Of a DNA stretch of 64,000 bases, positions 23,309 to 54,500 are shown piece after piece (positions within the stretch are counted from its first letter, which is position 1; every line of letters begins with the position of its first letter). The stretch lies in NCBI RefSeq assembly GCF_000002985.6, contig NC_003282.8, forward strand, positions 4,278,001 to 4,342,000, written 5' to 3'. Position numbers and translations under genes: made by a program. The notes under the pieces were generated by a model, which was not told the origin of the DNA, did not search any database, and was given only the letters and a program-made list of their open reading frames with translations. This DNA is from Caenorhabditis elegans (lineage: Eukaryota > Nematoda > Chromadorea > Rhabditida > Rhabditidae).

Positions 23309-26300
23309 ATGCTTCGGCTTCTCATTGCCACGTCACTGGCCGCCACGTTAGCGTGGGCGGCGGGCACCGCCGGCGGCTGCGAGGACGCGGACCCCAAATG
23401 CACCGAATGGGCGGCCACCGGGGAATGTGCTACCAATGCGGTCTGGATGATGGCAAACTGTAGGAAATCTTGTCATTCCTGTCAGGGAGGAGACAGGGCC
23501 TGGAAGCTCAGGACCCATATCCAGACCACTTACCAAAATGCGACTGATAACAAGACGAAGGTGGTGAGAGTTGAGAGCGTCCGAATCAACAATGTCGAGA
23601 TTGACGAACGTCGGCAGAATGTGAAGGTGTTTGGCAGATTCGTGCTCAGCTGGAACGACACTATGGTCTCTTGGGATAAGGAACAGTGGGGGCTCAGTTG
23701 GTTGAACTTCTACTGGATTCAAATTTGGACCCCAAATATTGTGCAGATCAACGGTGGCTCTACATCAAACCCTGGACAGGTGACATCAAAAGTTTTGGCT
23801 GCAAATTACACCGGACAGATCTACTTATGGTCGGATTTCTCATTCACTACACCGTTCAGATTCCAGTATGAAGACTATCCAAATGATATGCAGAGGGTGG
23901 GTAGATTTTATTATCAATGTTTTAAGAATCAATTTGCCGTTTGGCTTGAAAAAATTTAGAAACACGTACAAAACTATAGAAAAATACTGGTTTACAACAT
24001 TCTGTCAGTTGGCAATTTTTGATGGAATATGCCAGATATCTTTTGAGAAACTTGAACAATTCGGTGCAAAATTTTTGAACATGGTGCATCGACCCAAATT
24101 TTATATCTTTTATCTCTATTTATTTCAAAATTATAGGGGTTAGAAAGCTGAAAAAGTATTAACCCAGTGACTAATTCGTAGGTAACACCTTGTTTGAAAA
24201 CATGATTCACCGATTACTTATTAATGTAAAATTTTGAATAAAGTTTTTGAGATTTTAAAATTTGAATTTAAGTGTATAGAATCTTGTTTGACAAAGTAAC
24301 CTTTTTTGAATTTTCAAATTTTCAAATTCAGGTTTGCTATAAATTCGACGACAAACGTCTTATGGCAGTACACTTCACAGTTGCAGAGGGTGTTAAGAAT
24401 AAGGAAAGAGAAGCCACCACTGATCCATTCGTGTCTGGATGGAAGATTGAAGACGTTGAAGTTGTGGTGAGTTTTTGAGATACTTTGGAAACTTGCAGAA
24501 GTTATAGCATTTTTTCAAACCAAATTTTTTGTGTGTTTTTTTTTTAATTGAAATTAAAATTTTCTTTAAAGTCAATTACCCACTCTCCGGATAACGGAGG
24601 CACTGGAAAAAATGGATTGGCAAGTTTTGTGTGATGCTTCTCATTTCACAGCTTCTTGTAAATATAGTACAGAGCTTTCGCTTAATTTAACCGCAATATT
24701 TATCAATTTTTAATTCAGAGCTTCAGCTTCTACCTAACAGTCTCAATTTTCACCATTTTCAATGTTTTTTCAGGAATCCCCATACACCGTGGAGCAGCTC
24801 TCGGATCCTCGTCGTAATCCCTTCGATGTCCAAGCTGACAACGGTGAGCTCTGTATTTCGCTGAGAAGAAATGCGGTATATTTCACCGCCGAAATGTTGC
24901 TCCCAGCTCTGATCACCTCTCTATTCACGCTGGCCGCTGTGTTCTTCCAACTTTCTAAGACCCAGCCGATTCTTTTGGGATTCTCGGTAGTTGCACAGAT
25001 TTTGTCACTTATTTTAGTGTCTCAGAGACTTCCATCGTTCACTGCACATACTCCAACTATTTGTAAGTTTATTTCTGTGCCAAGAAAGCTAATATGTGAG
25101 CGGATTTGCGTCAAAATCATTTGAAAATTAAAAAAAATTATTTTTGAACAAAAGTTAATTGCATATCGCTTCATTTTATTTTTCGGAAAAAACTACATTT
25201 CAGTTTTGCGCCAATTTAAATTGAAAGACTAAAAATTAAATTGTTAGCAATAATTTAAAATTTTATTATTTTTCGTAAAATTTTTTCCTTATAAAACTTT
25301 TTAATATTTTCAAATATTTTTAATTTTGGCCACTTCTAATTTAAACTCTGAAAAGTTTAGCTTGATCAAAAAAAGTTAACCTTAGTTTTTGAAAAAATTT
25401 CAAAATTTTCAGAAATTTTTCGAAATAATTCCCAAAAAATTCAAACATTTTCATACTCGAATATGTTAGGCTTTTCGTTGTTAAAACTGCCAATATGTGG
25501 ACGGACGGAGTCGCATCAAAAATATCAAAAAAATTTTGAAATCGATTTTAAATAATTTTCAATCATTTGAAATTGGAATTTGCCGCCAGATTTATTTGAA
25601 AAATCGCATCTCGCCTCAATGTTTTTTTTTTTGGAAAAATTAAACGTTTTTTTTTTTTATATTTCAATTTGGTTTTATTTTTTAAATTTTTGGAAAAATT
25701 AAATTTCAATTTTGCACCAAATTAATTTGAACATTTTAAAGTTTGTCAAATACTTTTGGCTGAATTGTAAATGTTTTGAAATTAAAAAAAAACACCTCGA
25801 ATTCAACACTTTTGGGAAGTTTAGCTAGATCAAAAAATTAAAAGCATTATTTTTTTATTTTACAGAACCAAGTTGTAAAAAATGATCAAAAGACTGCTAA
25901 AATTCAAAAAAAAATAATAAAAATTTTCCAATAACTTCCAAAACTTCAAATCGCTCTGAAATTATTGATATAAATTTTTTGCAAAATCTCAGAAAATTTT
26001 CGAAATTTTTCTCAAAGCTTCCGAAATTTCAAAATTTTTCAGTGAAATACGCCGGCTTCAACATGACGTGGACAGCGATCCTCTTCGTAATTTCCCTAGT
26101 TCTCGAGAGAATGGCAACTTCACAAGTAGACATCCCACCCCCACATGGAGTCTCCACATTTGCCGGGCTCGTGAACAAGTTCCTTCCAATTCCGAAGAAC
26201 TCAAAACACGAAGATTCAACTCTCCAATACGCTGCATTTGCTCATGCTCTGAACCACGTCATCTTCGCTTTATCCACTGTTCTCTACTTTATCGTTATAT

Positions 26301-26320
26301 TGTTCTCTTTTGTTTTTTAA
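23309..26320 (+). CDS. Ligand-gated ion channel subunit (LGC family) with N-terminal ShKT domain
   Basis: Four phase-consistent exons (23309-23896, 24332-24466, 24774-25062, 26043-26320) encode 429 residues. A signal peptide (LLIATSLAATLAWA) is followed by a six-cysteine ShKT domain at about residues 24-58 (CTEWAATGEC, ANCRKSCHSC). A Cys-loop receptor ligand-binding domain follows (YEDYPNDMQ). Four membrane helices come next: M1 AEMLLPALITSLFTLAAVFF, M2 ILLGFSVVAQILSLILV, M3 WTAILFVISLVLE and M4 HVIFALSTVLYFIVILFSFV. The usual C-x13-C loop is not conserved: the first cysteine is missing and the second is shifted by one. The gene therefore belongs to the divergent LGC subfamily of pentameric surface receptors; ligand unknown. 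Its last codons and 3' end lie in a direct repeat also found at 47738-47957. Confidence 0.85.
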
Positions 26321-26519
26321 ATTTTAGTTTTCTTTTTGCAATATTTTTTGTAAAAATTAGTTGTTCTTGCTCAGTTTCTCTTGACACTAATAATTTCGCC
26401 ATATCGAAAATCATGTATAATAAAGACATTTTTAATGAAACATTGATTCTAGCAATACTTCAATTCAGACCAAATTCTAACTTTTGTTTTCTAAATTTTG
26501 GTGGGAAGTACTTAAGTTT
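26299..26519 (+). repeat. 220-bp direct repeat, left copy (end of channel gene)
   Basis: The segment begins at ATTGTTCTCTTTTG and runs to TACTTAAGTTT. By eye it is identical to 47738-47957 over its whole length. It contains the last seven codons and stop of the channel gene and its ATAATAAAG poly(A)-type signal at about 26416. Both copies are in the same orientation and bracket the set-9 block. The right edge abuts the broken mariner element. Confidence 0.85.
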
Positions 26520-27580
26520 CGTTTCGACGACCTTTCGATCATGAAACTTCTGCCCGGCAAGGTGATTCTGGAGTGAGCGGAACAGATGGTAGTCAGTAGG
26601 AGCCAAGCCCGGCGAATACGATGGGTAAGACAAAATTTGGATTCCGACTGTCTGGAGCTTCTGGCGGGTCTTAGAAGTTGTATGCGGTCTTGCGTTGTCA
26701 TGGAGCAGCAACAACTTTGATCCTCTAGGGCGATGTAATCGATGAGCATGGACCACCTCTTCCAATTAAATGCAGTATAGGCCAGCGTTGATTGTAGCAA
26801 AGTCTGGAAGAAGCTCTCTGGAAATGACACCCTTACTGTCCCGCCCAATTGAGAGAAGCACTTTTTTCCGTGAAGTTCTCATTTGAGGTCAGGTGTCGCG
26901 GTTTCCTCGACCGGGACCCACTCTTTTTTCCTGGTATGGCTAACATACAATACCCATTTATCATTTCCAGTAATGATATCCTTAACCCAGTCCGTTGTTC
27001 GTTTCCTAGTGAGCAGCGAAAGAGAGAGGTCACAAAGCAATTTTTCTGAGAATCGGACAATTTGTGAGGAACGAGTTGACCGAACTTTTCTATCTTTCCG
27101 GTTTTTTGGAGATGGTTGATGATGGTTTTTTGGGGATGCTTGAAAGTCGCAGAAAGTTCGCGTGACGTTGCTCTTGAATCATCTTCCAGGGCTCTCGAAA
27201 TATCCTCATCGATATCCGAACGAGAGCTATCTTATCTTGGTTTATCATCGAGATCGTAGTTCTTTTTCGTGAACTTTTCGAACCAAAACTTCATGGTATT
27301 GTAGGTGACAGAGTTCTTGCCTAACACTGCACACATGTTACGACGAGCTTCGTTGCAATTGCAGCTTTGGGGGAACTCGTACAGAAAAACCCCTCGGAGG
27401 GCGTGACGTTCGGCGAGCAAATTCTCGGTCATTTTGAACAGCACCCAAAAGTTTTTTCAAATGTATTAAACATGCTCATTACGTACTATACAAATAACAA
27501 AAACGGAATCAGAAAAAAATGAATTAACGCTGAGAAATGAAGAAAAGCACAAATTTTGCAAAGACTTTTTGCTCAACCTA
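26520..27580 (-). mobile_element. Degenerate mariner (Tc1/mariner, DD34D) element, truncated at its 3' end
   Basis: Reading on the minus strand, the 5' end is a mariner-type inverted repeat (TTAGGTTGAGCAAAAAGTC, at about 27562-27580) next to a TA. The transposase starts with a MTENLLAERHALRGVFLYEF helix-turn-helix region near 27430. It then continues in several different frames. The catalytic 'LHDNARPH' and 'SPGLAPTDYHLF' motifs are visible near 26700 and 26590. Frameshifts and stops make it inactive. The expected second inverted repeat is absent: similarity ends at 26520, where the 220-bp direct repeat begins. Confidence 0.85.
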
Positions 27581-28060
27581 ATATAAAGCGCGTGTCCTTC
27601 CGTCCGTTTGTAGTTTGTAGTTTGATCTTTGATCTTTCAACTCTCTATTCTGTAGTTGGAAGTTGTATTGGGTTGGGAGTTGGTGATGGATAATGCCAAG
27701 CTACTGTAGTAGTACTGTAGGAGTACTGTAGGTATACGGTAGGGTTACTGTAGTTTAGGAAAAATTGAGTTTTTGTCTACAGAAGAGGTATTGGGTTGGG
27801 AGTTGGTGGGAGATAATGCCAAGCTACTGTAGTGGTACTGTAGGAGTACTGTAGGTATACGGTAGGGTTACCGTAGTTTAGGAAAAATTGAGTTTTTGTC
27901 TACAGAAGAGGTATTGGGTTGGGAGTTGGTGGGAGATAATGCCAAGCTACTGTAGTGGTACTGTAGGAGTACTGTAGGTATACGGTAGGGTTACCGTAGT
28001 TTAGGAAAAATTGAGTTTTTGTCTACAGAAGAGGTATTGGGTTGGGAGTTGGTGGGGTTA
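27581..28060 (+). repeat. 123-bp tandem repeat array, left member of an inverted pair
   Basis: After a unique head (AAAGCGCGTGTCCTTCCGTCCG) come about three units of 123 bp. The start TATTGGGTTGGGAG recurs at 27666, 27789, 27912 and 28035. Each unit holds a run of TACTGTAG(G/T)AGTAC and GTATACGGTAGGGTTAC followed by TTTTTGTCTACAGAAGAGG. The same head and units occur in reverse orientation at 46860-47727. Confidence 0.9.
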
Positions 28061-28269
28061 ATATTGCGAGTGTAGGCGTTTTCTACTTATAAACATTTTC
28101 ACAGTAAATGTTCAAATGTTTCCAAAAATCATCAAGAACGTTTTTGAAATTTTGGAGAAATTTTGAAGTTTGTGGAATTTTTTGAAAGCTTGATAATTTA
28201 TTTCGAATTTTTTTCTCTCTCCCGGTACATTGTCACCAAAAGATGCAAAATTCCTAATTTTATAAAAAA

Positions 28270-29180
28270 TTCAGGCAAAAATCGTGCTCAATAAGACAAG
28301 GCCCTACTACAGTCGACGGTTCCAGCCAAATAAGCCGGCAAAGCAGCTCCAACACCACTCCCACCATGGCAAACGTCACCGACGGCATAGGGGACAGTTA
28401 GCTGGCACGGAATACCTATCAAAAAGTGAGTAACGTTAGAAAATTACGTAAAAAAGAGCTCGAACTCAATATTTAAAAAATAAATTCGTCATTTCAGACC
28501 GAAATCAGTGAATCGTAAGCCGATCCAAGACAACTTCAGTCCAAGGAGCAACAGATGCTTAAAAAACGACAACGTCACTCCACAAATTGGATTAATAAAT
28601 TCCATATCGAGTAATACACGTCAAAATCCTTAATAAATGATTGATAAGTCGAATAAACTGTAATTTAATCTGAACATGGGAGAAACAGTGAAGAATATGT
28701 AATTATCGCTCCGCAGAGCCCACGGAAGACTAAAATATAGCACGTGGAAAGTTCAAAAGACGCAAAAAGTTGCGAATCTATATTCAGATCAATAATTCCC
28801 CATTTAGAGTCAGCTTTTAACATCAGTCCAGGCACAAAACGATTCACCGGTCGAAATCGAACAAATATCCATAGAAATTGACGTCAGAAATAATCGATAA
28901 TTCTCCAAATTTGGCGATAGATAGCGGAAAACCTGTAAAATCTCTGCGAAAGGGCAAGAATTATGGGAAATTAGGCAATCCATTCGATAAAATCGTTATA
29001 ACGGCCGCCATAGACGCCAGTGGAACAGAATTACACCGCCATCGGTCACAATTTTCGAGAAATTAGAGATTTTAGAGATATTTCGTTGATGAATTTTCAG
29101 TTCAGAGAAGAATCCTTCGACAAGGTGAACGTAGAAAGATGAGTGAAGTTGAAACGTCCACAGAAGACGAGAAAACCTGA
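28270..29180 (+). pseudogene. Stranded gene fragment upstream of set-9
   Basis: Several exon-like stretches look coding but do not join in frame. Positions 28277-28424 (acceptor TTCAG, donor GTGAGT) read as a basic chain including KTRPYYSRRFQPNKPAKQ. Positions 28500-28625 stay open in a different phase. Positions 28748-28876, 28870-29066 and 29100-29178 each stay open in yet other frames. The lower A+T content supports former coding DNA. No family is recognised. The simplest reading is a broken partial gene carried along with the set-9 block; a gene with an unrecognised splice pattern is the alternative. Confidence 0.3.
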
Positions 29181-29945
29181 AGAAAATACTTAATTAATGG
29201 GAAGATTCGCAAAAAACTCACTGAGAAACAATTCCATGAGCCAAGATGCAATTTTTTCAACCCAAAATACATTATTTGGCGTGATAATCGATATAAAATC
29301 TGAAATTATACGAAAAAACCCCCGGAACAACTTTATATTGTCGATTTCCTTCGTGAATGACGCAAAATAATTTGAATTCCGCGAGGCGAGAGTACGGTAG
29401 AATCTGGTGTGTGCACTTGCACACAACCTTACGCGCAAATGCGGAAGGCGGGAAAGAAACTTCTGGATGCGAATCCTAAAATAATTTCGCAATTTTTCCG
29501 TCATTTTCCGTACTTTTTTTGATGGAATTATCATGTTGGAATTGCTTACTGCTGACCAGAAACCTCAGAAGTTTGAGAATTCTGACGGCTTTGAATTTTT
29601 TGAAAAATCGGCTGGAAAAAAATATTCCGACAGGTTTTTGATCAGTTTTTTGATGTAAAAACGTTAGAAATGATTAGTTTTATTGAAAAAGTAGGTAAAA
29701 TCTGAAGAAAAGCGTAATAAAACCATGCTACGATTTTTTCAAACATCTCTCCACAATCATGCGGAAATTATTGATTTTTGATATTTTTCCTGGCGTTTTC
29801 TTTGGTTTTTCATGTCTCTCAATTTTTTTCCTGGCGTATTCGATAGTTTTTCTAATTTTATCGATTGTTCTCACCTTAATTTTGTCAATTTTCAGGTTCG
29901 TCAAGTATTGCATGCCAGAAAGTCGTCGTCGCTAGACAAGGAAAA
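29181..29945. promoter_or_regulatory. Upstream region of set-9
   Basis: About 760 bp precede the set-9 ATG. An acceptor-like TTGTCAATTTTCAG ends at 29894, about 50 bp upstream of the ATG, and would suit SL trans-splicing or a 5' UTR intron. Near 29404-29430 there is a short palindrome (GTGTGTGCACTTGCACACAA). No specific factor site can be named. Confidence 0.35.
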
Positions 29946-32900
29946 ATGGCAGACGGAGAGCATACGCTTCCAGCCGACGAGGAGCTCTTCGAGCAACCAC
30001 CACCACAGCAACAACAACCCGAAATCGCCGAGCCAATTGTTATGGCTCAAGGTAGGATTTTGCTGTGTAATGGCGCGAAATCTAAGTTTAAAAATTTTCA
30101 GAGCCCATTCAAGGAGTCTCAGAGGATCCACAAGCTTCTGAAGCGACACACGAGGCTCCAGACAATTACCCAGTTGACCATCAAATGGAGAATCAGGAAT
30201 TCTACCACGAACCGCAAATCCCCGAGCCGCAGCAGATTCCTCAGATTCCAGTCTTTCAACCGGCGGCCTACAATCCGCCAAACTACGTTGCTCCACAGCA
30301 GAGAGCGAATAATTTTGGTGAACCAGCAGCAGCAGATGCTCGTCCATTGACAGAACAAGAACAATTGGCAGCCGAACGACCGACTGAAGACACAGTTTGG
30401 ATCGATTCTGATGATGATACTGATGTGGAAGAGGCGATTCTGAGGGCAAACTTCTGGTTGCCGTATAGTGTAAGGAAAAAGAAAAATCTCGATTTTAGAG
30501 GCTATTTTCCATTTTTAAATCAATATTTGCAATGCAAAACTTAATTTTCTGTATATTTCAGGACCACAACTACGATCCGCCGGATCCCGCGGACCGAATC
30601 ATTCTCCCGACAGAAGGCCCGTTCCCGTGTATCGCCGGCCTGGACGAAGACTGCAACATTGTCAAGCAATGGATGCCCGAAGACGCCGTCGGCCCGGGAT
30701 CCCCGGGAACACAGTACCGACGAAACCAGCAGGCGGGCGGTGGTCTTCCATCAACGTCAGTGGCTTCCCAGCAGCAACAGCTTCCTGTGCGCCATAATAT
30801 TCAAAATCGGCCGATGGTTGCTGCGCAGCCTTTCTCGATCGGTGGAAATCAAGTGGAGTATGGTGGAATGGATTCGAGAATGCAGCAGAGAGGGTATGGA
30901 AGGCTTAGAAGTCTGAAAAAGCCCGAAAAGGCCTGAATAAAGACTACACCCTGTGGGGAAATTGCTTTAAAACATGCCTATGTGGTCACAATGACCGAAT
31001 ATCTTGATAAAAAAATTCAAAAAAATTTTCTAGATTTTAAATGATTTTTTGAAAATTGAAAAAATCTAAGTTTTCCCCTAATTCCTATTTGAAATTCCGC
31101 CAATTGGATTTGTTCGGTGGAGCGCGCTTGCACGTTTTTATTTTTATTCATTTTATTTTTTGTTATTTTCCACCGATTTTTAAAGTTTTCGTTGTATTTT
31201 TGCTTGAATTTTAGAGAAAAAGTCAAAATAAATGCAAATTTTCGATTAAAAAACACGATTACAGGCGTAAAAATGAAAAAGTAACGCCTTTAAACGATTT
31301 CAAACCTGAATTAACTAATTTCACTGATTTACGCCTGAAATTAGAGTGACATTAGTTAATTCAGGTTTGAAATCGTTGAAAAGCGTTACTTTTTCATTTT
31401 TACGCCTGTAAGCGTGCTTTTTTAATCGAAAATTTGCATTTATTGTGACTTTTTCTCTAAAATTCGAGCAAAAATACACCGAAAACATTAAAAATCGGTG
31501 GAAAATAACAAAAATTTTAAAATAAATAAATTTAAAAACGTGCAAGCGCGCTCCATCGAACAAATCCAATTGGCGGAAATTCAAATAGGAATTAGGGGAA
31601 AACTGAGATTTTTTCAATTTTCAAAAAAAATCATTTAAAATCTAGAAAATTTTTTTGAATTTTTTATCATGATATTCGGTCATTGTGGTACCATAGGCGT
31701 GTTTTAAAGCAATTTCCACACTGGCGCTACTCCACATTAAAAAGCCTAAAAAAGCCTTTAAAAACACTAAAAAAAACACTAGAAAACATTAAAAATCTGA
31801 ATTTTCAGCGTCGTCCGAGATGGTCCGCAATATCGCGTCATGAACGATTTTGGAAATGGTCTACCAATGCGCGGGCTACTTCCACCACGAAACTCGCCGG
31901 CCGCCAACGCGATCAACAGAGCTCGAGAGCAGCAACAACAAATGTATCATCAAGCTGGAGCACGTGGAAGCTTACAGCAACGTGCTGCCCCGGCTCCGGC
32001 GGATCCAACACCCGGCTCTTATCAGCATATCGTGAATGCGGTGCCAGGTGGAGGAGCTAATCCGATGCGTCGTGTTCCACCACAAGCTAGACCTGGAATG
32101 ATTGGAGGAGCGGCGAACAATAATCGTGCTCGTCCGACCCATGTGACTCGTCCGATGGATACCCAAGAGTTTGAGCATCCTGTTGCTCCAGCAGCTGCTC
32201 CACCGCACAGAGTTGTCGACGTGGCTCCTCACAGAATGACTCCGGAGCAACGACAGGAGCTTCAGCAGATGAACCGTCAACGGGCGGCTCCACAATTTCC
32301 GGCTGCTGCAGCTCAAAGATCCGCGGAAGTGATTGTGATTCAGCAGAGACCAGGAGCTTCTAGCAGAGCGCCAAGACCATCTATGGCTCAGGAGGACTTG
32401 CTCCGCTCACCGACTCGCCGACTTTCGGAACGAGTTCCACAAGAACATCAGACGCCAGTGCTGGAGCCGAGAAGATTCCAGGTTAAGGTGACGGATACCT
32501 ACTCGACGCCGATTCCGAAGGCTAGTGATCAGCTACCAGCACAGTTGACTGAAGAGGATCCGCCAGAGGAGTCGGCTGCTGCTGCTGCTCCAGAAGATGT
32601 GCCGGATGCTGCTCCAGAAGATCCTCCAAAAGTAATCCTGAAGCCGACGCCGCCGCATCGAATGACTCAGGAGGAGAAGAATGCTCATTTTGCCAGGCTC
32701 ACTACGGATAAGGTGATTTTTGATAGAATAATCGTAAAATAGCGAATTTCGCGGTGAAAATTCGAGAAAAATGGCCTAATTTTAGCTAAAAATCTCCAAT
32801 GTTGGACTAAAAACTGGCCAAAAATGGAGATTTTAGCTAGATTAGGCCATTTTTCTCGAATTTTCATCAGGATTTTTTTTCATTTAAACGTATTTTAAGG

Positions 32901-35900
32901 TCTACACGCTCAAAAAAAAAAATTGCCTGATTTAACTAAAAATGTCAATTTTGTCAATTTTGGCCAGTTTTGCGGCCCGAAATTGACTTTTTTTGAATTA
33001 TAATCCTTTATTTCATATTTTAAAGGCTCAAATATGGGATAAAGGATGATAAATCAAAAACAAAGTCAATTTTGGACCGAAAATGGAGATTTTAGCAAAA
33101 AGAAGCTAGATTAGGGCGGAATTTCGTTCATTTAAGCTTATTTTAAGGTCTATACGCTCAAAACTGAAGAAATATATTAAAAATTTCAATTTTCAGGACC
33201 CATATCGTGGTGAAAATTCGAAAAAAAAATGGCCTAATTTTAGCTAAAAATCTCAATTTTGGACTGCAAAACAGGCCGAAATTGGAGATTTTAGCGAAAA
33301 TATGCCATTTTTCTCGAATTTTCAAAAGGAACTTTGTTCATTTAAGCCTATTTTAAGGTCTATACGCTCAAAAGTATTAAATATTTCAATTTTCAGGGCC
33401 CATGTCGTGGTGAAGATTCGAGAAAAATGGCCTGATTTAACTAAAAATTGTAATTTTGGCCAGTTTTGCGGCCCGAAATTGGCTTTCATTCATTATTTCA
33501 TATTTTAAAGGCCAACATATGGGATAATTCAGCGCAAAATTTGCCGAAAATGGAGATTTTACCTAGATTAGTCCATTTTTCTCGAATTTTATTACAAAAT
33601 ACTTTTATTTAAGCTTATTTTAGGGTTCAAAAACGTTCAAAAACTAAAGAAAAACAAATTAAATCTTTAAATTTTCAGGAAAAGCCGACTTCAAGTACCT
33701 CCATTCTTCCACAAGATGCTGCTCCGCCACACGTTCCACCACCACCACCACCACTTGTCCTCCGTCCCCATCATCAAGACGAGACCCTGGCAATGGTTCA
33801 ATCCGTGTTCGAATCGAAACCACGCCAGCCGGACACTCCAAAGGACAAGGAGACGATCTCGAAGATTGCCGATTTGTTGAGATTCAGTGCTGACGAGTTT
33901 ACCGGACAATCTGGGAGCTCTGCTGCTGCTCGGCAGAGAACTGTCAGTGGAAGTGCCGCACGAGCTCAGACTTATCAGATGCATCATCAGCAGCAGCAGC
34001 ATCATCATCAAATGCCGATGGATCAGAGAAAACGACCAAGTTCTGGAAGATATGATGCTCTGATGGGAGCGATGCCACTTCAGCAACAGCCTCCACCACC
34101 ACCATCACAATTTCAGCACACTGATTCGATTGCTCATCGTCCACGTGGAAGGCCGAAGGGAACGAGGCATCCTTCAGTTGCAGTGCAGCCTCAAAGATCT
34201 GGAGGAGCTCGAACCCTACCGCCACGAGCACAGACTGTCGCAATGTCGGCTCGAAATGGAGCAAACGCGAAGAATTCGGATTCCGAATCCGAGGGAATCG
34301 ATGAAGCCGCCGAGGAGAGCTGGACGATGCGATGCCACTGTGGTATGGATCATGGTGATGGGGATACGATCGAGTGTGAGGGATGCAAGACGTGGCAGCA
34401 TATGGCTTGTATGGGTCTGACGCTGAAGAGCAACACGTCAAAGTACAAATGCGAGATGTGCTTGCCGAGGCGGCTTCCCGTGTCGAAGGCGGAAGCGGCT
34501 CGAGAGCAGGAGCGGATTTTGAATCGGCTTCGAGCGGCGGCCAGGAAGCAAAAGAGGAAGAGTGAGCCGGTGGAGCAGAAGCAGAAGTCATCACAGCCAT
34601 CAACATCGCGAAAATCGGCGCCAATGGCTCTCCAACAACCGGCGGAACCCCGTGTCGCTCAGCTCAATGACTACTCGAAGCAGGCGTCGGCTCTGCTGTT
34701 TGGAATGGAGCAGACCGCAGGTGCGGACACGCTGCTCGCCGAGTCGCGTCTCCACAAAAAGGCTCGTCGAATGTTTGTGGAGGAAGCCGTTGAGGCTCTG
34801 GTCACGACGGATCTTGTGCAGATTCGGCAGGTGATTCTCGAAGTGAATGGACACGTCTCGATGTCGAGTGAGGTGAAACGGCAGCCTGGCGGAGGAAATT
34901 GCATTTTTATGTACGATGGATTGATGAAAGGAACCGCCGGCGAGGATATGGGTGACGGGCAGGAGCTGGTTTGTATCGATACGAAGCGGAAAGGAAATGA
35001 TACGAAGTTTACGCGGAGATCGTGTGTTCCCAACTGTGTTCTGAAGCACGTGCTCGGCTCGAATGCCACACTGGGTATTATGATTGTCGCGACGAAGGAT
35101 ATCACGAGAAACACGGAAGTCACACTTCCATTCGATGCGGATTGGCGAGAATCAGAGGTTGAGCTCGAGTGTGCTGAGCATATGAAGGAGCTCCAGGCGT
35201 GTCCATTCGAAAGTGAGAGACGTCGATTCGCGGCCGAACGACATCGAGCGATGGATCATAAGAAGCAAGAGGCTGAAGAAGCTCGTCGAGCTGATGAGGA
35301 GCGTCGGAGGCTTGAGGAGGAAGTTCGGCGGGAACGGGCCGCGAAGACGAAGCAGATGGATGAGGCGGAGAAGGCGAGGTTGGAGGCGGAGAAGGCGGCC
35401 GAGAAGGAGAAGAAGGCGAAGGAGAGGAAGAAGATGGAAGCTTCGGCGGCAGCAGCACCAGAATCTACTAATTCGATAACGGTAAAAATAAAAAAAAAAC
35501 TTTTTTTTTTTTTTTCACTCTGAAATTTAAAATTTAAATTTTGCTAAAAAAAAAAGCACTTTTGTGATTTTTTTTTTCCCGAAAAATAGAGAAAAAGCAC
35601 TTAAAGTTAAGATTTTATTTTTTAAAAAATCCACAAAAAACCATGCGGCAGGGTTTTTCCAAATTTTCCAACGTTTTTTTTCCCACGTTGCATAGAATTC
35701 CAGGTGTAAATTCGAGGCACCACGTTTTCAAGATTTGTGCAAAAACAAGATCTACGAAAAGAAGATCTACGTTTTCAGGATCTGGCATCGTGCCAACTGC
35801 GGTTTTCTCGATGAAAAACGAAAAAAAAAACGATGCTCCGATTTTACGCGTCGCGTGTTGTTTAGCGTTCAGAAAGATATTTTTTAAATTTTCTTCTAGA

Positions 35901-38613
35901 AGATACGCTAAAAAACACGCGACGCGTAACATCGGAGCATCGTTGTTTCGTTTTTCATCGAGAAAACCACAGTTGGCACGGTGCCAGATCCTGAAAACGT
36001 AGATCTTGTTTTTGAACAGATCTTGAAAACGTGGTTCCATCTGTAAATAGTGAAATTTTCCAAAAAAAATTAAAATTTTCCAGGCGCGAGAAGAACGTCG
36101 CATCCAGCAAGCCGAAGAGATGTTCCGCCGCCAAGAAGAGGAAGGAAAGCGTAAAGAAGCACGACGTCGCTCGAAATCTGTGACTCCTGGTGTGTTGGAA
36201 GCCGCCGGCACCGCGGCTCGAGAAGATGCTCCAGAAGCATCGATTCCTGTACCAGCACCATCACCACCGGCTTCACGTCGATCTGTGAGCCGAACAACTC
36301 AGCCGAGCACTTCAAGCTTTGCGACGCCTACGGAGCCTCCGGCGAAAAATAAGAGAAGTGAGGGATTTTTAATCGAAAATTCATCTAATTTTTGATTTTT
36401 AATCGAAAATTCATCTAATTTTTGATTTTTAATCGAAAATTCAGCTAATTTTTGATTTTTAATCGAAAATTCATCTAATTTTCGAAATTTTTTCAGTGCG
36501 AAGCGTCGTTCCACCGAAATCCGAGCCAGCTTCATCGGCGAAACGTGTGCGAGCAACTACTGTGGCCACACCGAAAGCCACCACCGCCAATGATTCCAGA
36601 AAACGAACAGCCTCCGCTACTGGGAAGACTCCTGTCGCGAAACGCTCGAAGAATGTTGCTCCGACATCATTCGCGCTCGCGCTCATTGAGAAGGAGCTCC
36701 GCGAGCAGGCCCGCAACTCGACGGTTTTGGAGATGATTTTGCCGGATTATATAATGAATGAAGAACGAAGTGGGCTCCTCGCAGGGCAGTCGCCGGATTT
36801 CTCGGAAGTTCGAGCTCAGATTGAGGAGGAGAATCGGATGAAGGAGCGGTCCAGGAAGAGGGAGGCGAAGAAGAAGGCGGTGGAAAAGGAGAAGAAGGAG
36901 CACAGGAAGGAGCCTAAGAAGACCAACGAGCCTGGCCCAGCGCCGAAGTCTGAAAAGGCTGTGGAAAAGGCTGTAGAAAAAGTGGAAAAGAAGCCGAAAT
37001 CTCCGCAAAAGCCGCCTGCAAAGCCTACTGCTCAAAACCCGCCGCTCAAAAAAACCGAAGAAGTTGATGGAATCGAGCGAGAAGCGTCTGAATCATCGTC
37101 GAAAGAGTCGTCGGTGGCGCCCGAGGAGAAGAAGAATCCGAAGAAGATCACATTTGCCGAGTACAATAGTCGTAGATCACAGAAGCGTGAAGCTGGCGAG
37201 TGCTCGACGCCACCGGCAGTGACTCGACGTGGATTTATTCCGAGTACGGAAGGCGAGGATTTGGTGAATGTTGAGGTGCGGACGGAATTTTTTTTGGAGA
37301 TTTGGAGCTTGGAAATGTGAAAATGTCGATTTACGGTGAACTACGCAAGATTCTGCACGATTATCCTCATTTTCTACTGTTTTTTCCTTTTAAAATAACC
37401 AAAAATTCATCGATTTTGGTTGAAAACCCCCAAGATTACTAGAAAAAGGCTATTTTAAATGGAAAATGCAGTAAAAATGAGGAAAATCGTGCAGAATCCT
37501 GAGTAGTTCTGCGTAAATCGACGGATTTTCTTCATTTTTTTACTGAATTTTCCATTTAAAATTGATTATTTCTAGTATTTTCTTCGTAATTATCAAGTTT
37601 CCCACCGAAAATTCATCGATTTTTGTGGAAAAAACCCCAAAATTACTCGAAAAAGGCTATTTTAAATGGAAAATTCATTAAAAATGAGGAAAATCGTGCA
37701 GAATCCTGAGTAGTTCTGCTTAAATCGACATGAGAGCATTAAAAAATTGTTTTCAGCATTTATGTCGAATTACGGTGAACTACGCAAGATTCTGCAGGAT
37801 TTTCCTCAATTTTTACTACATTTTCCATTGAAAATTACTAATTTCTAGTATTTTCTCTGTAATTATCAAGTTTCCCACCAAAAATTCATTGAAAAACCCC
37901 AAAATTATTTGAAAAAGGCTATTTTAAACGGTAAATGCAGTAAAAATGAGGAAAATCGTGCAGAATCCTGAGTAGTTTTGCGTAAAACGACATGAGAGCC
38001 AAAAAATGGACCAAAAAGCAAAAAAATTTGGAATTTCTCCAAAAAACACTTTAGAAAACCAAAAAAAAAGAAGAGAACCGCGCGGCAGGTTTGCAATTCG
38101 ACGCCCCGCCCCTTCTGAATTTTTCATAGATTTCTTTTCCAGCTCTCGGCGATCCCACTCGACGATCATCCCTCATCATCCAACACGGCCCCCACCACGA
38201 CAATTGCTCCATCCGTCGGTGGTGCTCCAAAACCCACAAGCGTCGTCGTCAAATCTCCGAGCACACGTTCTCGAACTCGTGGAGCCGCTAGCGAAAGTGC
38301 CGACGATGCTCCAGCTGAGCACAGTATGTCGCTTCAGGACCGAGTTTTTTCAATGTTCGGATCGACAGTTGATGCTCCAGCTCCACCACCACCACCAGCG
38401 AGTGGTGAGTTTTTTGAAGAAGCAATTTTTCCATGCGGCACAGAAAAATAGGCGTGGTCTCAATCGAAACCACGCCCATTTTTCCGTGCCGCACGGAAAA
38501 ATAGGCGTGATCTCTGTTTTCCCGCTCAAAAATCTTAAAATCCCCTTAAAAACCCTCAATTTTTTTCAGCTGAAACAAACTCGAGACGAAGCCGTTCAAC
38601 CCGTTGGAATTAG
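29946..38613 (+). CDS. set-9: SET-9: PHD finger and SET domain chromatin protein (MLL5/SETD5-like)
   Basis: Nine phase-consistent exons (29946-30051, 30102-30469, 30562-30893, 31809-32712, 33679-35481, 36084-36357, 36497-37275, 38143-38404, 38570-38613) encode 1623 residues. The N-terminal half is low-complexity and Gln/Pro/Ala-rich. A PHD finger lies near residues 785-835 (MRCHCGMDHGDGD, IECEGCKTWQHMAC, YKCEMCLP). A SET domain lies near 905-1080 (RRSCVPNC). A long Glu/Arg/Lys coiled coil and a basic tail (SRRSRSTRWN) follow. In C. elegans, SET-9 and its near-identical paralogue SET-26 bind H3K4me3 through the PHD finger and affect germline function and lifespan. The SET core resembles MLL5, which lacks clear methyltransferase activity: the catalytic Tyr region reads PFDADW. 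The identification rests on domains and the remembered length; set-26 is the only alternative. Confidence 0.9.
30950..31728. repeat. Large palindrome in set-9 intron 3
   Basis: Two arms of about 380 bp are near-perfect reverse complements. The left starts CTGTGGGGAAATTGC and the right ends GCAATTTCCACAC. They meet around 31320 at a spacer containing GATTTACGCCTGAAATT. The element fills most of the 30894-31808 intron. It has no coding capacity and resembles foldback or palindromic DNA elements common in this genome. Its transcript would form a very long hairpin in the pre-mRNA. Confidence 0.85.
32713..33678. repeat. Diverged tandem repeats in set-9 intron 4
   Basis: The intron is built from irregular copies of a block containing 'TCGAGAAAAATGGCCTAATTTTAG', 'ATTTTGGCCAGTTTTGCGGCC' and 'TTAAGGTCTATACGCTC', some of them inverted. 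No exon is visible inside. Confidence 0.6.
35717..36041. repeat. Palindrome in set-9 intron 5
   Basis: Two arms of about 150 bp are reverse complements. The left contains CACCACGTTTTCAAGAT and GATCTGGCATCGTGCCAACTG; the right mirrors them as CAGTTGGCACGGTGCCAGATC and ATCTTGAAAACGTGG. The centre is near 35890. It is a non-coding foldback element. Confidence 0.8.
36365..36484. repeat. 30-bp tandem repeat, four copies, in set-9 intron 6
   Basis: GATTTTTAATCGAAAATTCATCTAATTTTT is repeated four times with one base changed in the third copy (AGCTAATT). It nearly fills the small intron between exons 36084-36357 and 36497-37275. Confidence 0.85.
37276..38142. repeat. Repeats in set-9 intron 7
   Basis: The intron contains two to three copies, some inverted, of a block with 'TACGCAAGATTCTGCACGATT' and 'GAAAATCGTGCAGAATCCTGAGTAG'. 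The copies could pair with each other as long stems. No exon is visible. Confidence 0.6.
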
Positions 38614-39452
38614 CAAGGAATCTGCGAAAACCTTGAAGAATAAAATTGTCCCATATCTCTTTCTATCTCGATTCGAGCCCCCAATGCTTTCTCATAATTG
38701 TTTTTTTGTTGTGGATTTTCAACTCTTTTGCCACTTTTTCCCCTTTTTTCTCTAAAAATCTCAAAAGTTATTCGTTCGTCAAACTGTTTTATAGGTCAGG
38801 TACCTTTTTTTTGCCGTTTTCAAAATCCACGATATGGAGATTTCATGGAATTTTTAAAAGATCTCTCTTTATCACCACTAAAAAACCTCTATTTTCACTT
38901 GTTCTTTTTTTCATTTCTTTTTTCTTTTTATTCCCCCCTGCACCGCAATTTATTGAACTGGTAGTACAGTACCACTCCTCCCCACAACGCCCACACACCG
39001 CATACAGTAATCCTTCACTTTTTCTTCTAGAAAAAAAAACTGCTGCATTTCCCTAAATATTTGTTTTTTGTGTTCTCTCTCTCTGTATCTCTTTTTTTTG
39101 TCTCGAAATATTATTAATTATCATATTACGATATATCCCCCCCCCCCCCCCGTATCTCTAGCGTTACGCTTTTATGATAATCTCACCAAGTGTTTCTTCT
39201 TTTTTTTTGTTGGGGAATAAAAACTGCTGAATTCAGCTGAAATTTAAAAATTATTGAAAAAAAAATTAAATTTTCAAACGTGACCCCCCCGCTAGCACTA
39301 GGAAAATAGCCTCAACGCGTGGCAAAAACATGGCAAAACAAAAAAAACCAAAAAATCGATTTTACGAGAAATTGCGAAAAATTGAATTATTTCTGACTTT
39401 TCTCAATTGCCTACTGCACACACACACGCAGTCATACACACAGTATTGAACA
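38614..39452. other. set-9 3' region and spacer with a C15 tract
   Basis: The 840 bp between the set-9 stop and the next ATG are pyrimidine-rich. They hold a run of about fifteen C at 39137-39151 and an AATAAA at about 39216. On the minus strand the C run is a G15 tract able to form a G-quadruplex. No gene is seen in it. Confidence 0.6.
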
Positions 39453-42400
39453 ATGAATGTCGATAATTTCGGATGGGAAAGCAGCCTTTCAGTCGTTGCA
39501 AATGAACAGACACGCACCGCCCGTCCACGTCATCATCACGGAAATTCGGTGCCGACACTGCTTCGACCGGTTTTTATGAATGCCGTCGAAGTTGGATACT
39601 CGTGAGTTTTTCCTGGAAAAATCGCTAAAAAAAGGGGAAAAATCGATAATTTCGCAATATTGGAAAAATCGATTATTTCGCATAATAGGGTTTAGCGGCG
39701 CCACTGGAAAAATCGATATTTTGAGTAAAAATCGATACGGCGGCCACGTAGCGGAATTATCGATTTTTTAAAGTGTGCTGATTGAAAATCAATAAAATCG
39801 TGCAAATTTCTTACAGATAATCGATTATTTCGCAATACCGGAAAAATCGATTATTTCGCAATATCGTAAAAATCGATAATTTCGCAATATTTTGAAAACT
39901 CGATAAATTTGCAATATTGCAATACAGCGCGACTGAAAAATCGATATTTTGAGTAAAAATCAATACTTTCGCGGCGGCGGCCACGTAGCGGAAATATCGA
40001 TTTTTGAAAGTGTGCTTCTTGAAAATCAATAAAATCGCCCTTCGAGAAAATCGATCGATTTTTCCGCAATATCGGAAAAATCGATATTTTGAGTAAAAAA
40101 TAATACTTTTGGCGGCGGCCATGTAGCGGGATTATCGATTTTTTGAAGTGTGCTTGAAAGTCAATAAATCTATTTAAATCGCCCAAATTTCGTCCAGAAA
40201 ATCGATTATTTCGCAATACCGAACAAAAATCGATTATTTCGCAATACCCGAAATATCGACGATTTCGCAATATTTCGAAAAAAATGATTATTTCGCAATA
40301 CAGCGGCTGGAAAAATCGATAATTTTAATAAAAATCAATACTTCGAAAAATTGTGCGAATTATCGATTTTTGAGCAGTTTTCTCCGAAATTCGATGATTA
40401 ACTGCTGAAAATTCGATAAAATTGTAGCGCGCTACCGAATTCGTTTTAGAAAATCGGTAATTTCTCGAATTTTGGAAAAATCGATAGTTTCGCAATAATC
40501 GATTAATTGGAAAATTGAGAGAATTATCGATTTTTAAGCAGTTTTCTCTGAATTTTTCTTTTTCAAGGATTATATGCAAGAAAATCGATAAACTGGCTAA
40601 GCCTGGCCGCATTTAATTCAGAAAATCGATAATTTCGCAATATAAAAAATCGATTTTTTATATTTGGAAAATCGATTATTTCCAGAAAATCAATAATTTC
40701 GCAATATTTCAGTTACGCACATTGCGACCGTGACAAGAAGCTAAACGTCCGCGGTGTCACCATTGCCCTATGGCATTTCATCTGTCGTGGACATCAAGCG
40801 ATCGCTCTTCTTCCGTATTGCTTTAAGAATTATGCGGAAAAATCGTCGAGATACTCGGAGCTCATGATGCTTTATCGTCTCAATTTGATCGAGTTTACAC
40901 CGGGTTACGGTAGCGAGAAGTACACCGAAGTCAATCGTATTATGGTTAATCGGGCCTATGAGACTGGTGGATGCCTTGTCGCAAGATCACAGATGCAGGG
41001 AATCACTGATAACAAATCGCATTTGATCGATGTCGTTGAGCAAAGGTGATTATTGATTTTTTTGAAGGCGTGGCGGAGGAAAATCGATAGTTTCGCAATA
41101 TTGATTGTTTAGAAAAATCGATAATTACCATCGATTTCTTTGAAAAGCTTGATTATTGGTCTCGCAGGGAATACCGAATTTCTGAGTAGTCTCGCGCTCC
41201 ATTGACAATCGCCTGCCGGACAACGCGTGGGAAAGTCGTGTACTTCACACGAACAAATACATTTAGTTTTACAACTAAAACCGAGCCGCGACACGCAACG
41301 CGCCGTAAATCTCTCCCATATATGGCCGAACCAAAATGGCCTAGTTCGGCAAAAACTCTTCCATTTCAATTTATGAGGGAAGCCAGAAATCCGTGTTCCT
41401 CATGAATTGAAATGGAAGAGTTTTTGCCGAACTAGGCCATTTTGGCTATCTGGGGTAGATTTACGGCGCGTTCCGTGTCGCGTTGCGGCTCGGTTTTAGC
41501 TGTAAAACTAAATGCACTTGTCCGTGTGGAGTACACGGCTTTTCCACGCGTTGTCCGGCAGGCGATTGTCAATGGAGCGCAAAAAATTCAATGGGAAGGC
41601 CAGAGCCCAAAGGGGAAAAATCGATAATTTCGCAATCCAGAAAAATCGATACTTCATCGATTTTCGTAAAAATCGATTATTTCTCGAATTTTTGAAAAAT
41701 CGATAATTTTTCGAATTTTAGAAAAAAATAGATTATTTCTCGAATTTTCGAAATAATCGATAATTTCAAAAGTTACCAGGAAAAAGTTGATGGCCGAGTT
41801 TTCCAAGTTTGTAGACCCCAAATCCGGCCATCTTAACTCAAAATTTGCAGACTCTTGATGCCAACGTTCAACGGAGACGACATCATGTTCCCGATTGACG
41901 GTCCACTCGGAAGAAATGGTCCATCGCTGGAGCAAACTCTCCAGTGTGATCAAGGCTTGTCGGATTGGAGATCGTGCTCGGAGCATCAGCTTCTGCTCTC
42001 CGACCAACGTCATTGGCTCGAGAAGTTGGCTCTTTTGGTGCCGGAGAAGGTCGTCTGGACGCGTATGGTTCAGATGATTCAGGGAGGTGGAATCGACGAG
42101 CAGATCGAGGGAGCAGGAGGCAACGATGGATTCTTTGATGAGTAGGTGTTCACAAGGATCCCGAGGATCCTTAAACATCCTAATTTCAGACCTCCATCTC
42201 CACCACTGGAGAATCCGTTCCATCGCCAAACTTGCACTGTTCCATCCAACACCAACATCCACAATGATCATGGTCCTGGCCAAGCACCTCCGGATCCATA
42301 CCAACCTCATGGTCATCCAGCCCATCACATTCCGAATCCCCATCAACTTCACCACCAGCACCGTCGCCGCTATTCTTCGCCAAGACGCTTCCACGGCAAC

Positions 42401-43811: not shown

Positions 43812-46330
43812 ATTATTGACTTTTTTTGTGTCTAGAGAATAATTGGATTTTATTTGTGTATTTGTGAAATGTAAATGTATTGGGTTTTGATCGATTATTT
43901 ATGATAAACTTTATGAAGTGACTGGTGCTTTTTGTTTGAGGGTATTGACTGATGATCACAATACTTAAACCAACATTTGTTCGCTTTAAGTACATCTTGA
44001 AACGGTAGAAACTTGTTGGATTCCAGAGGTTTATTACTTTTTTACTATTATAGTTTCCATGACTTTCAGGAACTGAAGAAGAGATTTTTTCAAAAAACTG
44101 CTCTATTGAAGATGTAATTTGTTATACTTTAATTGCAATTTGAAACAGTAAAAGTTGCAAATTTTTTAACTCTTGAAATCAAATGTTCCTGACAGTTTCC
44201 GAATGAGAAGGATCAATTAAAACTCAATTAGCTTTATTAGCTTTGACTAAAATTTGAAACGGTAGAATTTTAAAATAGTAAATTTTTGTCCAAACCAGAT
44301 TTTTTTTCAATCGCTGCAGCATGAAAAAGAAATGTTTGCCAACTTTGAATGCATTTTAAAAGTTGCAAATTTTTCAACTCTTGAAATTAATTGATTTTGA
44401 CTGTTTCCGAGCTAGCTGAATGCGAAAATTAACCGCAATAAACTTTGTTAGCTTTGACTAACGTTTAAGTAGAATTTAAAAAAAAATTAAATCTTCGTTC
44501 AAGGCAAATTTGGTTCTCTTCTAACTGATTAAATTCGTTTAATTTTGCAATTTTAAATTCAGCAAACTTAGAAAACTGCTGAAAATTTACAACGATTTTA
44601 ATACTTTTTTCGTTGTAATTACTAAAATTTTCGCTGTAACTTGCTGTTTGTTGAACTTGCAGTATTGAGAGATATTGAAAATTTGAATATGAAAACCTAA
44701 GTTTGTTAGCTTTGAAAGCATCCTGAAATGGTACAATTTTGGAGTTCAAAGCTCAAAGTTTGTTTATTGGAGTTAAATTTTATCTTTTTTTATCTCAAGA
44801 ACATTTTATATTGTATTTCTCTTTGATTTGATTATACGATTACAACTAGATAAATAAACAAATATAAAGATTTTATTTGTTCTACAACATCAGTGTTCAT
44901 GGCTTACAAATACAGTATTACGGAAGATATAATTTAGTATACTATAAATGCTGAAACAGTAAAAGTTTTTCATTTTTTTCACTCTTGAAATGAATTGTTC
45001 TTGGCCATTCCCAATCTTCAATATATTGATTAAAATGCAATTATCGTTGTTACTTTTGAATAAAATTTGAAACGGTAGAATTTTAGAATATTAAATTTTC
45101 GTACAAGCCAAATTTGGCACTATTCGAGATTTTGTTTAATTTTGCAACTTTATTGGCTTCCAGCAAGCTTTGATTTTAATAATGAAGTATTTTGTTCTCT
45201 ACTGTGGTTTCACTAAAACAAAATCTTACATTAGGGAAAGAATCACAGAAAAAGTTTTCCATGTTTCACTCACAAATTATAGATATTCAATTTTCACAAC
45301 TGTCAGTCGGTAGTGATTATTCTAACGAGTAAATACACTTATTCAACTTACCAAAACTGATAGATTATCATAATAAAACCCTCCATAAATATTTAAGATT
45401 TTCCATAATTTCCAGTCAAAGTTTTGGCAAATTAGCAAAATAAATTTAAAAAAAACGAGCTTTTGAGGAAATCCACTTATTAAAACGCAAATATCTTTGG
45501 TAGCTTTGAATAAAATTTGAAACGGTAAAATTTTGAAATGTTGAATTTCCGTCTAAGCCAAATTTGGGCCTCTTCGAGATTTTGTTAAATTCGTTTGGTT
45601 TGCAACTTTGTGGGTTTGTAGATTTCATTACTTTTTCGTAGTAAATACTGAAATTTTTGCTATTACTTGTTGTTTGTTGTACCAGCAGTATTGACGGAAA
45701 CAAAGAGGGAACATTCGAATGGGAAAACCTAGCTTTGTCAGCTTTGAAAGCATCTTGAAACGGTAGAATTTTAGAATTTTAAGTTTTTGACGGGACGAAT
45801 TTGCCCATTTTTTAGATTTTGTTTAATTCTTTTAATTTTGCAACTTTATGGTCTTTCAGAAACTGTTGACAATTCGAAAAATGGAATCTTGATTACTTTT
45901 TTGAAGTAAATTCTGCTTTTTTTTTCAAGACGCTGTTACTTGTTTTTGTTGGAAATACAATATTTACGGAAATAGATTTGTTGAAAGCTTTTAAAAAACA
46001 GTAAATGAGTGACAAAAACTAAGAAATTGTCACTTTTTGGCAAACAAAAAAAATATTAAAACATTTTTGAAAAGTGTGTGATATTCGATCGTACTGAATG
46101 CATCCAATAGTTGTTCGTTTTGAGTACATATTGAAACGGTAAAATTTTGAAGTATATAGCTCGGATAATTTTGTTTGGCCTTTTATGGGCTTCCAGCAAG
46201 CTTTAATTTTAATATTGATTTTTTTTGCAAATTCAAACAAACTCAATTATTTTGTTCTCTACTGTGGCTTCACTAAAACAAAATTGTACATTAGGTAGAA
46301 ATTCACAGATTTTCCACTGTTTCACTCATA
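43812..46330. other. AT-rich spacer with diverged tandem repeats
   Basis: From about 44050 to 46260 the DNA consists of old copies of a block a few hundred bases long. Its recurring parts are 'TTTGAAACGGTAGAATTTT', 'AAGCCAAATTTGG' and 'GAGATTTTGTTTAATT', seen near 44230, 44450, 45050, 45500, 45740 and 46130. No gene was recognised. Confidence 0.5.
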
Positions 46331-46699
46331 CAGTGCGTGCAACTTCTATTGCGCCCCTATTTTTTTCAAGTTTCAGTATTTTCCAAAATTTCCAAAACAG
46401 AAAAAATAAGACCTTATGATCATTTTTGTTCAGGAATAATACAATATTTATTTCAGAAATCTCATAAAACTAGGTATTTTATCAAAAATATGAAAAATTC
46501 GAGGGAGCGCTATAGAAGTTGCACGGTCGTTTTTACGATTTTTGACTTAGTAATGTTTGATATTTTTTGATAAAAATTTACGACAGGGGGTCTTTTGACA
46601 TTTAAAATCAAATGGCATTCGCCATTTTTCGAAAAAAGTTTTGGAAAGTACTGAAACTCGAAAAAAAATAGGAGGGCGCTATAGAAGTTGCACGCACTG
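46331..46699. mobile_element. Tc1-like MITE with TA target duplication
   Basis: The element begins CAGTGCGTGCAACTTCTAT and ends with the reverse complement ATAGAAGTTGCACGCACTG. The terminal inverted repeats extend about 50 bp with few mismatches. A TA flanks both sides (46329-46330 and 46700-46701), the target used by Tc1/mariner transposases. There is no transposase inside the 369 bp, so it is non-autonomous. Confidence 0.85.
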
Positions 46700-46859
46700 T
46701 ATATTATAATCCAGCCGCTGACCGCGCCTACGGCGCGGCCAATGACTGGCAACATTTGAAATGTTTGACACAATCATTCAAAAATGTCTTATGAAAAAAT
46801 AATGAAACTTTCACATCTTCCCAAATGTTCCCGACTCTAAGCAAGAAACTATCAAAATA

Positions 46860-47727
46860 TCTTGACATTATCCTCACCAATTCCCAAGCCAATACATTTT
46901 CAAAAACTTAAAACGCAATTTTCCACCAAACTCCAATAATCCTACAATAATCCTACAGCACCCCAACAGTACCACTACAGTACCTTGACACTATTCCCTA
47001 CCAACTCCCGAGCCAGCACTTCTTGAAAACGTTTTAAACTCAAAATTTCCTAAACTACAGTAACCCTACCGTGTATCTACAGTACTCCTACAGTACTACT
47101 ACAGTACCTTGACATTATCCCCCAGCAACTCCCAACCCAAAACCTCTTCTGTAGACAAAAACTCAATTTTTCCCAGACTACAGTAACCCTACCGTATGCC
47201 TACAGTACTCCTACAGTACTACTACAGTACCTTGACATTATCCCCCAGCAACTCCCAACCCAATACCTCTTCTGTAGACAAAAACTCAATTTTTCCCAAA
47301 CTACAGTAACCCTACCGTATACCTACAGTTCTCCTACAATACTACTACAGTACCTTGACATTATCCCCCCCACCAACTCCCAACCCAATACCTCTTCTGT
47401 AGACAAAACCTCAATTTTTCCTAAACTACAGTAACCCTACCGTATACCTACAGTACTCCTACAGTACTACTACAGTACCTTGACATTATCCCCCCTACCC
47501 ACTCCCAACCCAATACCTCTTCTGTAGACAAAAACCCAATTTTTCCCAAACTACAGTAACCCTACCGTATACCTACAGTACTCCTACAGTACTACTACAG
47601 TACCTTGACATTATCCCTCACCAACTCTTAACCCAATATCTCTTCCAACTACAGAAAAGAGAGTTGAAAGATCAAAGATCAAACTACAAACTACAAACGG
47701 ACGGAAGGACACGCGCTTTATATATAG
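46860..47727 (-). repeat. 123-bp tandem repeat array, right (inverted) member
   Basis: Five to six units of about 122 bp, each with CTACAGTAACCCTACCGTATACCTACAG and CCCAACCCAATACCTCTTCTGTAGAC, are the reverse complement of the array at 27581-28060. They share the head sequence ending GGACACGCGCTTTATATA. The outermost units (46860-47050) are more diverged. About ten bases separate the head from the right 220-bp direct repeat. Confidence 0.9.
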
Positions 47728-47737
47728 TAAATAAATG

Positions 47738-47957
47738 ATTGTTCTCTTTTGTTTTTTAAATTTTAGTTTTCTTTTTGCAATATTTTTTGTAAAAATTAGT
47801 TGTTCTTGCTCAGTTTCTCTTGACACTAATAATTTCGCCATATCGAAAATCATGTATAATAAAGACATTTTTAATGAAACATTGATTCTAGCAATACTTC
47901 AATTCAGACCAAATTCTAACTTTTGTTTTCTAAATTTTGGTGGGAAGTACTTAAGTT
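47738..47957 (+). repeat. 220-bp direct repeat, right copy
   Basis: By eye this is a perfect copy, in the same orientation, of 26299-26519, including the last codons, stop and poly(A)-type signal of the channel gene. Here it has no gene upstream and is followed by TACTAGCTAAACTAGC. It marks the right edge of the set-9 block. Confidence 0.9.
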
Positions 47958-53984: not shown

Positions 53985-54500
53985 GTTTGCCCTTCCATTA
54001 TGCGACTCCCTTGCGATCTTGTGAACTTGCATTGTATTTGACGATGTTTGAATTCTTATACAAATAAATTTTCAAAATGAATGAAAATCTGGAGTCCCAG
54101 CTAGAACCGGTCAAATGCAGATTTCATCTAGGAAGCATACTGTAGAAATATACAATTTTTGAAACAATGGATTTTCTAGATTTTTCTCATTTCACTGTTT
54201 GGACTCTCATTGTGCTTGGTGATTCTGGTTATAATCTCTAAAAAATCCCAGAAGCCGTCGAAAAGGTTAGACCTTCAAGGGATCCGAGGTATTGCTATAA
54301 TAGTGGTACTAGATTTTCATTTCTATCCAGAAGTATTTCCAAATGGATATCTTGGAGTTGATCAGTAAGTTTTTTTTTTGCCCGTGCACTCTCGGTACTA
54401 CAGTTCGGGCGCTTTTTTTTGGCAAAAAATTGTTTTGATGTATATAATCAGGATGTCAAAAACCTCTAGTCTCTAGGTTTCATGGGCTTATTATGGACTT
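53985..54500 (+). pseudogene. Stranded first exon copy of the OAC acyltransferase gene
   Basis: About 510 bp match 58588-59090, the 5' part of the intact acyltransferase gene. The first exon (about 54229-54362) still reads RLDLQGIRG and VFPNGYLGVDQ and keeps the GTAAGT donor, but the start ATG is ATA. None of the later exons follow. It is a truncated duplicate and cannot encode the enzyme. Confidence 0.8.

Follow-up and report, generated by a model that had tools for sequence, protein, structure and literature searches.

How did the block of DNA that carries set-9 come to lie at its present site, and do the edges of this block record the event that first separated set-9 from set-26 (Y51H4A.12)? 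We addressed this question in a stretch of 64,000 nucleotides of Caenorhabditis elegans DNA (NC_003282.8, positions 4,278,001 to 4,342,000), which we refer to as the window and whose own numbering is used throughout. The duplication that gave rise to the two genes is itself already published, and it is specific to C. elegans among the species listed by its authors (Wang et al. 2018, PMC6010342). What the locus adds is a dispersed duplication in which both junctions appear readable to the single base, together with a flanking repeat that serves as an internal clock and can be compared with the divergence of the paralogs. The date at which the gene was copied becomes separable from the date at which the copy reached its present site, a distinction that bears on both set-9 and set-26 and makes a prediction about the presence or absence of set-9 in wild isolates.

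Results

A perfect direct repeat marks both edges of the block

The two edges of the block are formed by a direct repeat, whose left copy (26299-26519, + strand) and right copy (47738-47958, + strand) have the same orientation and agree at 221 of 221 bases, the identity extending 0 bp past either edge. The initial annotation had already recognized an apparently mismatch-free, same-orientation repeat at these positions; the repeat is real, but its right end had been placed one base short, at 47957, and its length given as 220 bp. With a minimum length of 40 bp, this pair is the longest exact direct repeat that the window contains. A sensitive BLAST search of the whole window yielded no third full-length copy, and the other matches to the repeat, which has an A+T content of 75%, span 44-112 bp at 63-79% identity (E up to 0.005). 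On each side, the 300-bp flanks of the two copies resemble one another no better than shuffled sequences do (125 of 200 and 120 of 200 shuffles reached or exceeded the real score). An exact scan of viral contigs with 31 bases of the repeat returned 0 stretches, and a plasmid megablast with 26299-28300 as the query returned no match. Elsewhere in the window, 53988-54483 and 58591-59080 are also direct repeats of each other; they are separated by 4.6 kb and share 92% identity, with a 129-bp exact run.

The left copy belongs to the end of a ligand-gated ion channel gene on the + strand, as had been proposed; the Neur_chan_LBD and ShK domains confirm the channel assignment. The reading frame of the gene ends in FIVILFSFVF* at 26320, such that the left copy comprises the last six codons, the stop codon, an AATAAA at 26419 and DNA further on. 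Upstream of the right copy, the coding sequence of the channel gene is absent. Thanks to the duplication, the insertion proposed below would leave the stop codon and the 3′ end of the channel gene intact. The window also contains an oxidase-like gene with MoCoBD domains, which we take to be F15E6.6. A glycine-rich open reading frame at 17262-17588 fits the F15E6 clone, because F15E6.3 and F15E6.8 are listed as glycine-rich secreted genes of that clone (PMC3651406).

A mariner remnant appears to be cut at the left junction

Directly inside the left copy lies a mariner-family element (26520-27581, - strand) that lacks its carboxy-terminal end at the junction and whose transposase frame is interrupted by stops and frame changes upon three-frame translation. 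In phmmer searches the remnant matches SETMAR best (7.8e-19) and Mos1 next (1e-13), and its amino-terminal part gives a second Mos1 match (3e-05). The Mos1 matches stop at query residue 82, that is the codon at 26522-26520, which coincides with the left junction and leaves the last 37 residues of the 345-residue Mos1 chain unmatched. By contrast, the match to SETMAR extends five residues past the junction into the 221-bp repeat. We read this overrun as a short chance extension and the mariner as cut at the left junction; the earlier claim of an exact cut agrees with the Mos1 match, which ends at 26520, and sits less well with the SETMAR match.

We place the other end of the mariner at 27581, on the assumption that the motif TTAGGTTG... 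represents its terminal repeat. This end is followed by TA and then by the outer end of a tandem array. Near the left junction we found no partner terminal repeat, the best other site in the window being at 49205 with 8 of 28 positions mismatched. Because the mariner end abuts the array end with only the TA between them, the mariner was probably in place before the junction cut it.

Inverted arrays lie inside the block at unequal distances from its edges

The left array (27584-28057, + strand; ~3.2 units of 123 bp) and the right array (46861-47720, - strand; ~6.3 units of 125 bp), each taken together with its outer terminal segment, lie in opposite orientations. The BLAST match between them starts at 27578 on the left and reaches 47727 on the right, pairing 27578-28057 with 47727-47243 in inverted orientation at 93.4%; the aligned arms are identical at 450 of 481 columns and their outer ends match. 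A TA adjoins both arms, and at the left the same TA also borders the mariner. Toward the inner ends of the arrays we found no convincing further inverted homology (best match 58 bp at 72%, E 0.002). An exact scan of viral contigs with 33 bases of the array end returned 0 stretches.

On the right, the gap between the array and the 221-bp copy amounts to 10-17 bp, depending on whether the arm is taken to end at 47727 or 47720. The 17-bp spacer at 47721-47737 occurs a single time in the window at up to 2 mismatches. Inverted 123-bp arrays had been described just inside both ends of the block. Their inversion stands, as does the proximity at the right; "just inside" fails at the left, because ~1.06 kb of mariner separates the repeat from the array. 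The left end of the insert is thereby located inside mariner coding sequence and the right end 10-17 bp outside an array, and neither lies at a transposon terminus.

Two further elements are found in this region. Inside the block near the right array, a short element at 46328-46702 has inverted ends of 39 bp that are 87% complementary. A palindromic element occupies 47978-48349, starting ~20 bp beyond the right 221-bp copy (74% across 300 columns, with inner arms 84% complementary).

The block carries the likely set-9 gene and its 3′ neighbor

Between the repeat copies lie 21,218 bp (26520-47737), in which the initial annotation had placed set-9 and an NYN gene and in which PHD/SET and NYN domains were confirmed. 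The first gene, on the + strand with an approximate extent of 29880-38652, encodes PHD and SET domains (Pfam PHD_5, SET and PHD on 33613-35520), and published SET-9/26 oligos match it at 34279-34297, 34517-34537, 38553-38594 and 38617-38652. These matches show that the gene belongs to set-9/set-26, and it is likely set-9 itself, which we take to be F15E6.1. The second gene, also on the + strand (40633-42142), encodes a Zc3h12a-like NYN ribonuclease in open reading frames at 40633-41046 and 41837-42142 (PF11977 at 4.2e-29 and 3.1e-05). It is presumably Y24D9B.1, a name assigned by position from Wang et al. 2018 (PMC6010342), where the genes 3′ of set-9 and set-26 (Y24D9B.1 and Y51H4A.13) are reported to be duplicated too. 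Open frames at 28275-28633 (+ strand), which have splice-like borders and lie between the left array and set-9, form a candidate two-exon gene tail, possibly that of another gene brought in with the block.

A further homolog, Y73B3A.1, lacks the PHD-SET region (PMC11703099), which raises the possibility of more than one copying event for the set-9/set-26 gene. A scan of genome contigs with the PHD-SET exon gave 53 pattern matches, of which 0 were confirmed as relatives. Differences between the two paralogs in tissue expression and in phenotype have been reported (Wang et al. 2018, PMC6010342). Just upstream of the last exon of set-9 as placed by the oligos, 38425-38502 (- strand) matches the Rfam mir-16 family at 41.2 bits and folds into a hairpin of 37 bp closed by a 4-base loop (z -14.7); a small palindromic repeat is a likelier identity for it than a microRNA. 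No tRNA genes were found in a scan with a bacterial-code program.

The repeat appears younger than the paralogs

The flanks of set-9 and set-26 (±500 bp) are near 90% identical (Wang et al. 2018, PMC6010342), a figure that the authors give as a summary over this interval and that stands in the relevant passages without its treatment of indels; the genes themselves are 97% identical at the nucleotide level (PMC5295584). A repeat as old as ~10% divergence would be expected to carry ~22 differences in 221 bp, and we observed 0. The probability of zero differences is 8e-11 at 10% divergence and 0.0012 at 3%, and the 95% upper bound on the divergence of the repeat is 1.35%. If only the right copy were free to change, the probability of zero changes at 5% divergence would be 1.2e-5. 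Selection on the channel gene should not keep the right copy identical, since the gene's upstream coding sequence is missing there.

With 0 of 221 differences against flanks near 90% identity, the repeat is not as diverged as the paralogs, a comparison that gene conversion could mask. The contrast implies that the junction formed later than the paralogs split, that the donor was already diverged, or that gene conversion homogenized the two copies.

Six published oligos placed on the window offer an additional comparison. The two longest, armF2 and armR2, represent the set-9/26 3′ ends in a repair template. Over 91 aligned non-coding bases they show 4 substitutions and 2 indels relative to the window; 2 of the substitutions and 1 of the indels fall at an oligo end and depend on the alignment (ungapped, the 60-mer has 4 mismatches). 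Set against 0 of 221, this difference gives a Fisher p of 0.007, or 0.0006 with indels counted, a weak contrast that presumes that the template follows set-26. The remaining four oligos comprise two exact matches (the 42-mer and the 19-mer) and two with 1 mismatch each (the 36-mer, which lies within armR2, and the 21-mer in the coding part). As far as these short stretches can be compared, the armF2/armR2 result agrees weakly with a repeat younger than the paralog split.

The proposal that the birth of set-9 left this repeat as its scar therefore finds no support on timing, with 0 of 221 differences in the repeat against flanks near 90% and genes 97% identical. The 221-bp scar looks too young for the event that first parted set-9 from set-26, although gene conversion or an already-diverged donor could rescue the link to the birth of set-9.

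Discussion

A model for the arrival of the block

The anatomy of the locus is likely explained most simply by an insertion of 21,218 bp with duplication of the target. As expected of break repair that duplicates its target site, the direct repeat immediately adjoins both ends of the insert. The initial annotation had pictured a staggered-break insertion of a duplicated segment; the anatomy fits an insertion with target duplication, while the accompanying suggestion that this insertion may have been the birth of set-9 clashes with the published divergence. We give an even chance to the reading that a break at the 3′ end of the channel gene took up the piece from 26520 to 47737, that this event duplicated 221 bp of the target, and that the scar records the arrival of the block rather than necessarily the origin of set-9.

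Before this insertion, the 3′ end of the channel gene with a single 221-bp copy would have run straight into TACTAGCTAAACTAGC. A double-strand break at this position would have left complementary overhangs of ~221 nt. Both overhangs would then have been filled in and a fragment captured between the ends, giving rise to the 221-bp target duplication, and the fragment at the time of joining would have comprised set-9, the NYN gene, the two inverted arrays and the truncated mariner. We propose break capture with long complementary overhangs because the direct repeat is exact, the mariner is cut and the right junction lies just outside an array. Fill-in of complementary overhangs before end joining is known to produce small tandem duplications, with overhangs of 43 bp in mouse ES cells (PMC8355091). 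Speaking against fill-in capture, the overhang assumed here would be ~5 times as long, and the reported cases are tandem duplications and not captures of 21 kb. Alternatively, the same scar would result if replication switched template and resumed 221 bp upstream of the point at which it had departed. A simple inversion by staggered breaks is ruled out, as it leaves inverted duplications and the 221-bp copies are direct.

We also consider, as a doubtful elaboration, that the set-9 block is a recent arrival: it would have acquired its differences from set-26 beforehand, either on a divergent haplotype or at a different site, and would then have been inserted or moved in one break-repair event too recent for mutations to have accumulated in the scar. 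Hyper-divergent haplotypes could provide the background for the first of these origins. If this were true, wild C. elegans should still differ in whether they carry set-9 at the site, and a germline chromatin regulator would then segregate as a structural variant.

Other explanations of the repeat

The block may instead already have been in place when 221 bp of the channel gene's end were copied to 47738 in a separate small event, so that the repeat would not mark the insertion at all. A young repeat beside an older duplication would then be explained without moving 21 kb, yet chance must have placed the new copy 10-17 bp outside the right array, and an additional event must have cut the mariner at 26520, and we regard this course as unlikely.

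Quite unlikely in our estimation is that the insertion was the original set-9 duplication and that the 221-bp copies afterwards lost their differences through gene conversion between them. Conversion tracts between C. elegans paralogs have a mean of 117 bp and a range of 12-2,958 bp (PMC3966223), which makes conversion over the full 221 bp feasible, and both copies reside on one chromosome in direct orientation. Against it, identity reaches both extreme edges of the repeat with no leftover difference, and the frequency of conversion in C. elegans drops with distance over 1-8 kb, whereas these copies are 221 bp long and 21.4 kb apart (PMC3966223; a human study cited in the same review found no distance effect).

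Foldback elements have arms made of tandem units, and the matching outer ends and 450 of 481 identical columns of the inverted arms invite the idea that the arrays are the long terminal inverted repeats of a composite, foldback-like transposon that mobilized 20 kb including set-9. We find this highly improbable: the 221-bp repeat lies outside the arms with the mariner between and is consequently not the target duplication of such an element, the mariner remnant is the sole transposase match among the 19 block ORFs searched with Pfam (of 104 ORFs of at least 70 aa), and the inner array ends show no convincing match to each other. An assembly artefact at the boundary of the F15E6 and Y24D9B clones, which would lie inside the block since the names Y24D9B.1 for the 3′ neighbor and F15E6.1 for set-9 indicate that two clones are joined between the repeat copies, is very hard to credit given that the flanks of the copies differ on both sides, which would be unexpected from a simple false join.

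Comparison with known systems

The insertion with target duplication that we favor concerns the same gene pair as the duplication described by Wang et al. 2018 (PMC6010342), in which the 3′ neighbor is likewise duplicated. The passages of that paper on the duplication cover identity and gene content and do not mention the junctions, the 221-bp repeat, the mariner or the arrays. In main-text passages of the open literature retrieved by gene and clone names, we found no published description of the junction of the set-9 block.

Duplicated DNA is likewise inserted at a distance as a unit in duplications that arise through circular or lariat DNA (PMC7188851, PMC7450558); their hallmark is an altered order of segments, which is read against the donor locus. 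Small tandem duplications that Pol alpha-primase forms by filling in complementary 3′ overhangs (PMC8355091) share with our model the direct duplication of the target through filling of both overhangs before joining; they differ in their 43-bp overhangs, in their origin in mouse cells and in having no 21-kb insert between the copies. Finally, the 108-kb segmental duplication on chromosome V (Vergara et al. 2009, PMC2728738) is likewise recent, occurs in C. elegans and has mariner-family elements (Cemar1) at its borders, and it is polymorphic, being present in 29 of 76 N2 samples. That duplication is tandem, with near-identical Cemar1 copies at its borders and duplicons that are 99.7% identical (PMC2728738), whereas the set-9 block is dispersed, carries a truncated mariner at one border and is flanked by a 221-bp repeat of its host gene.
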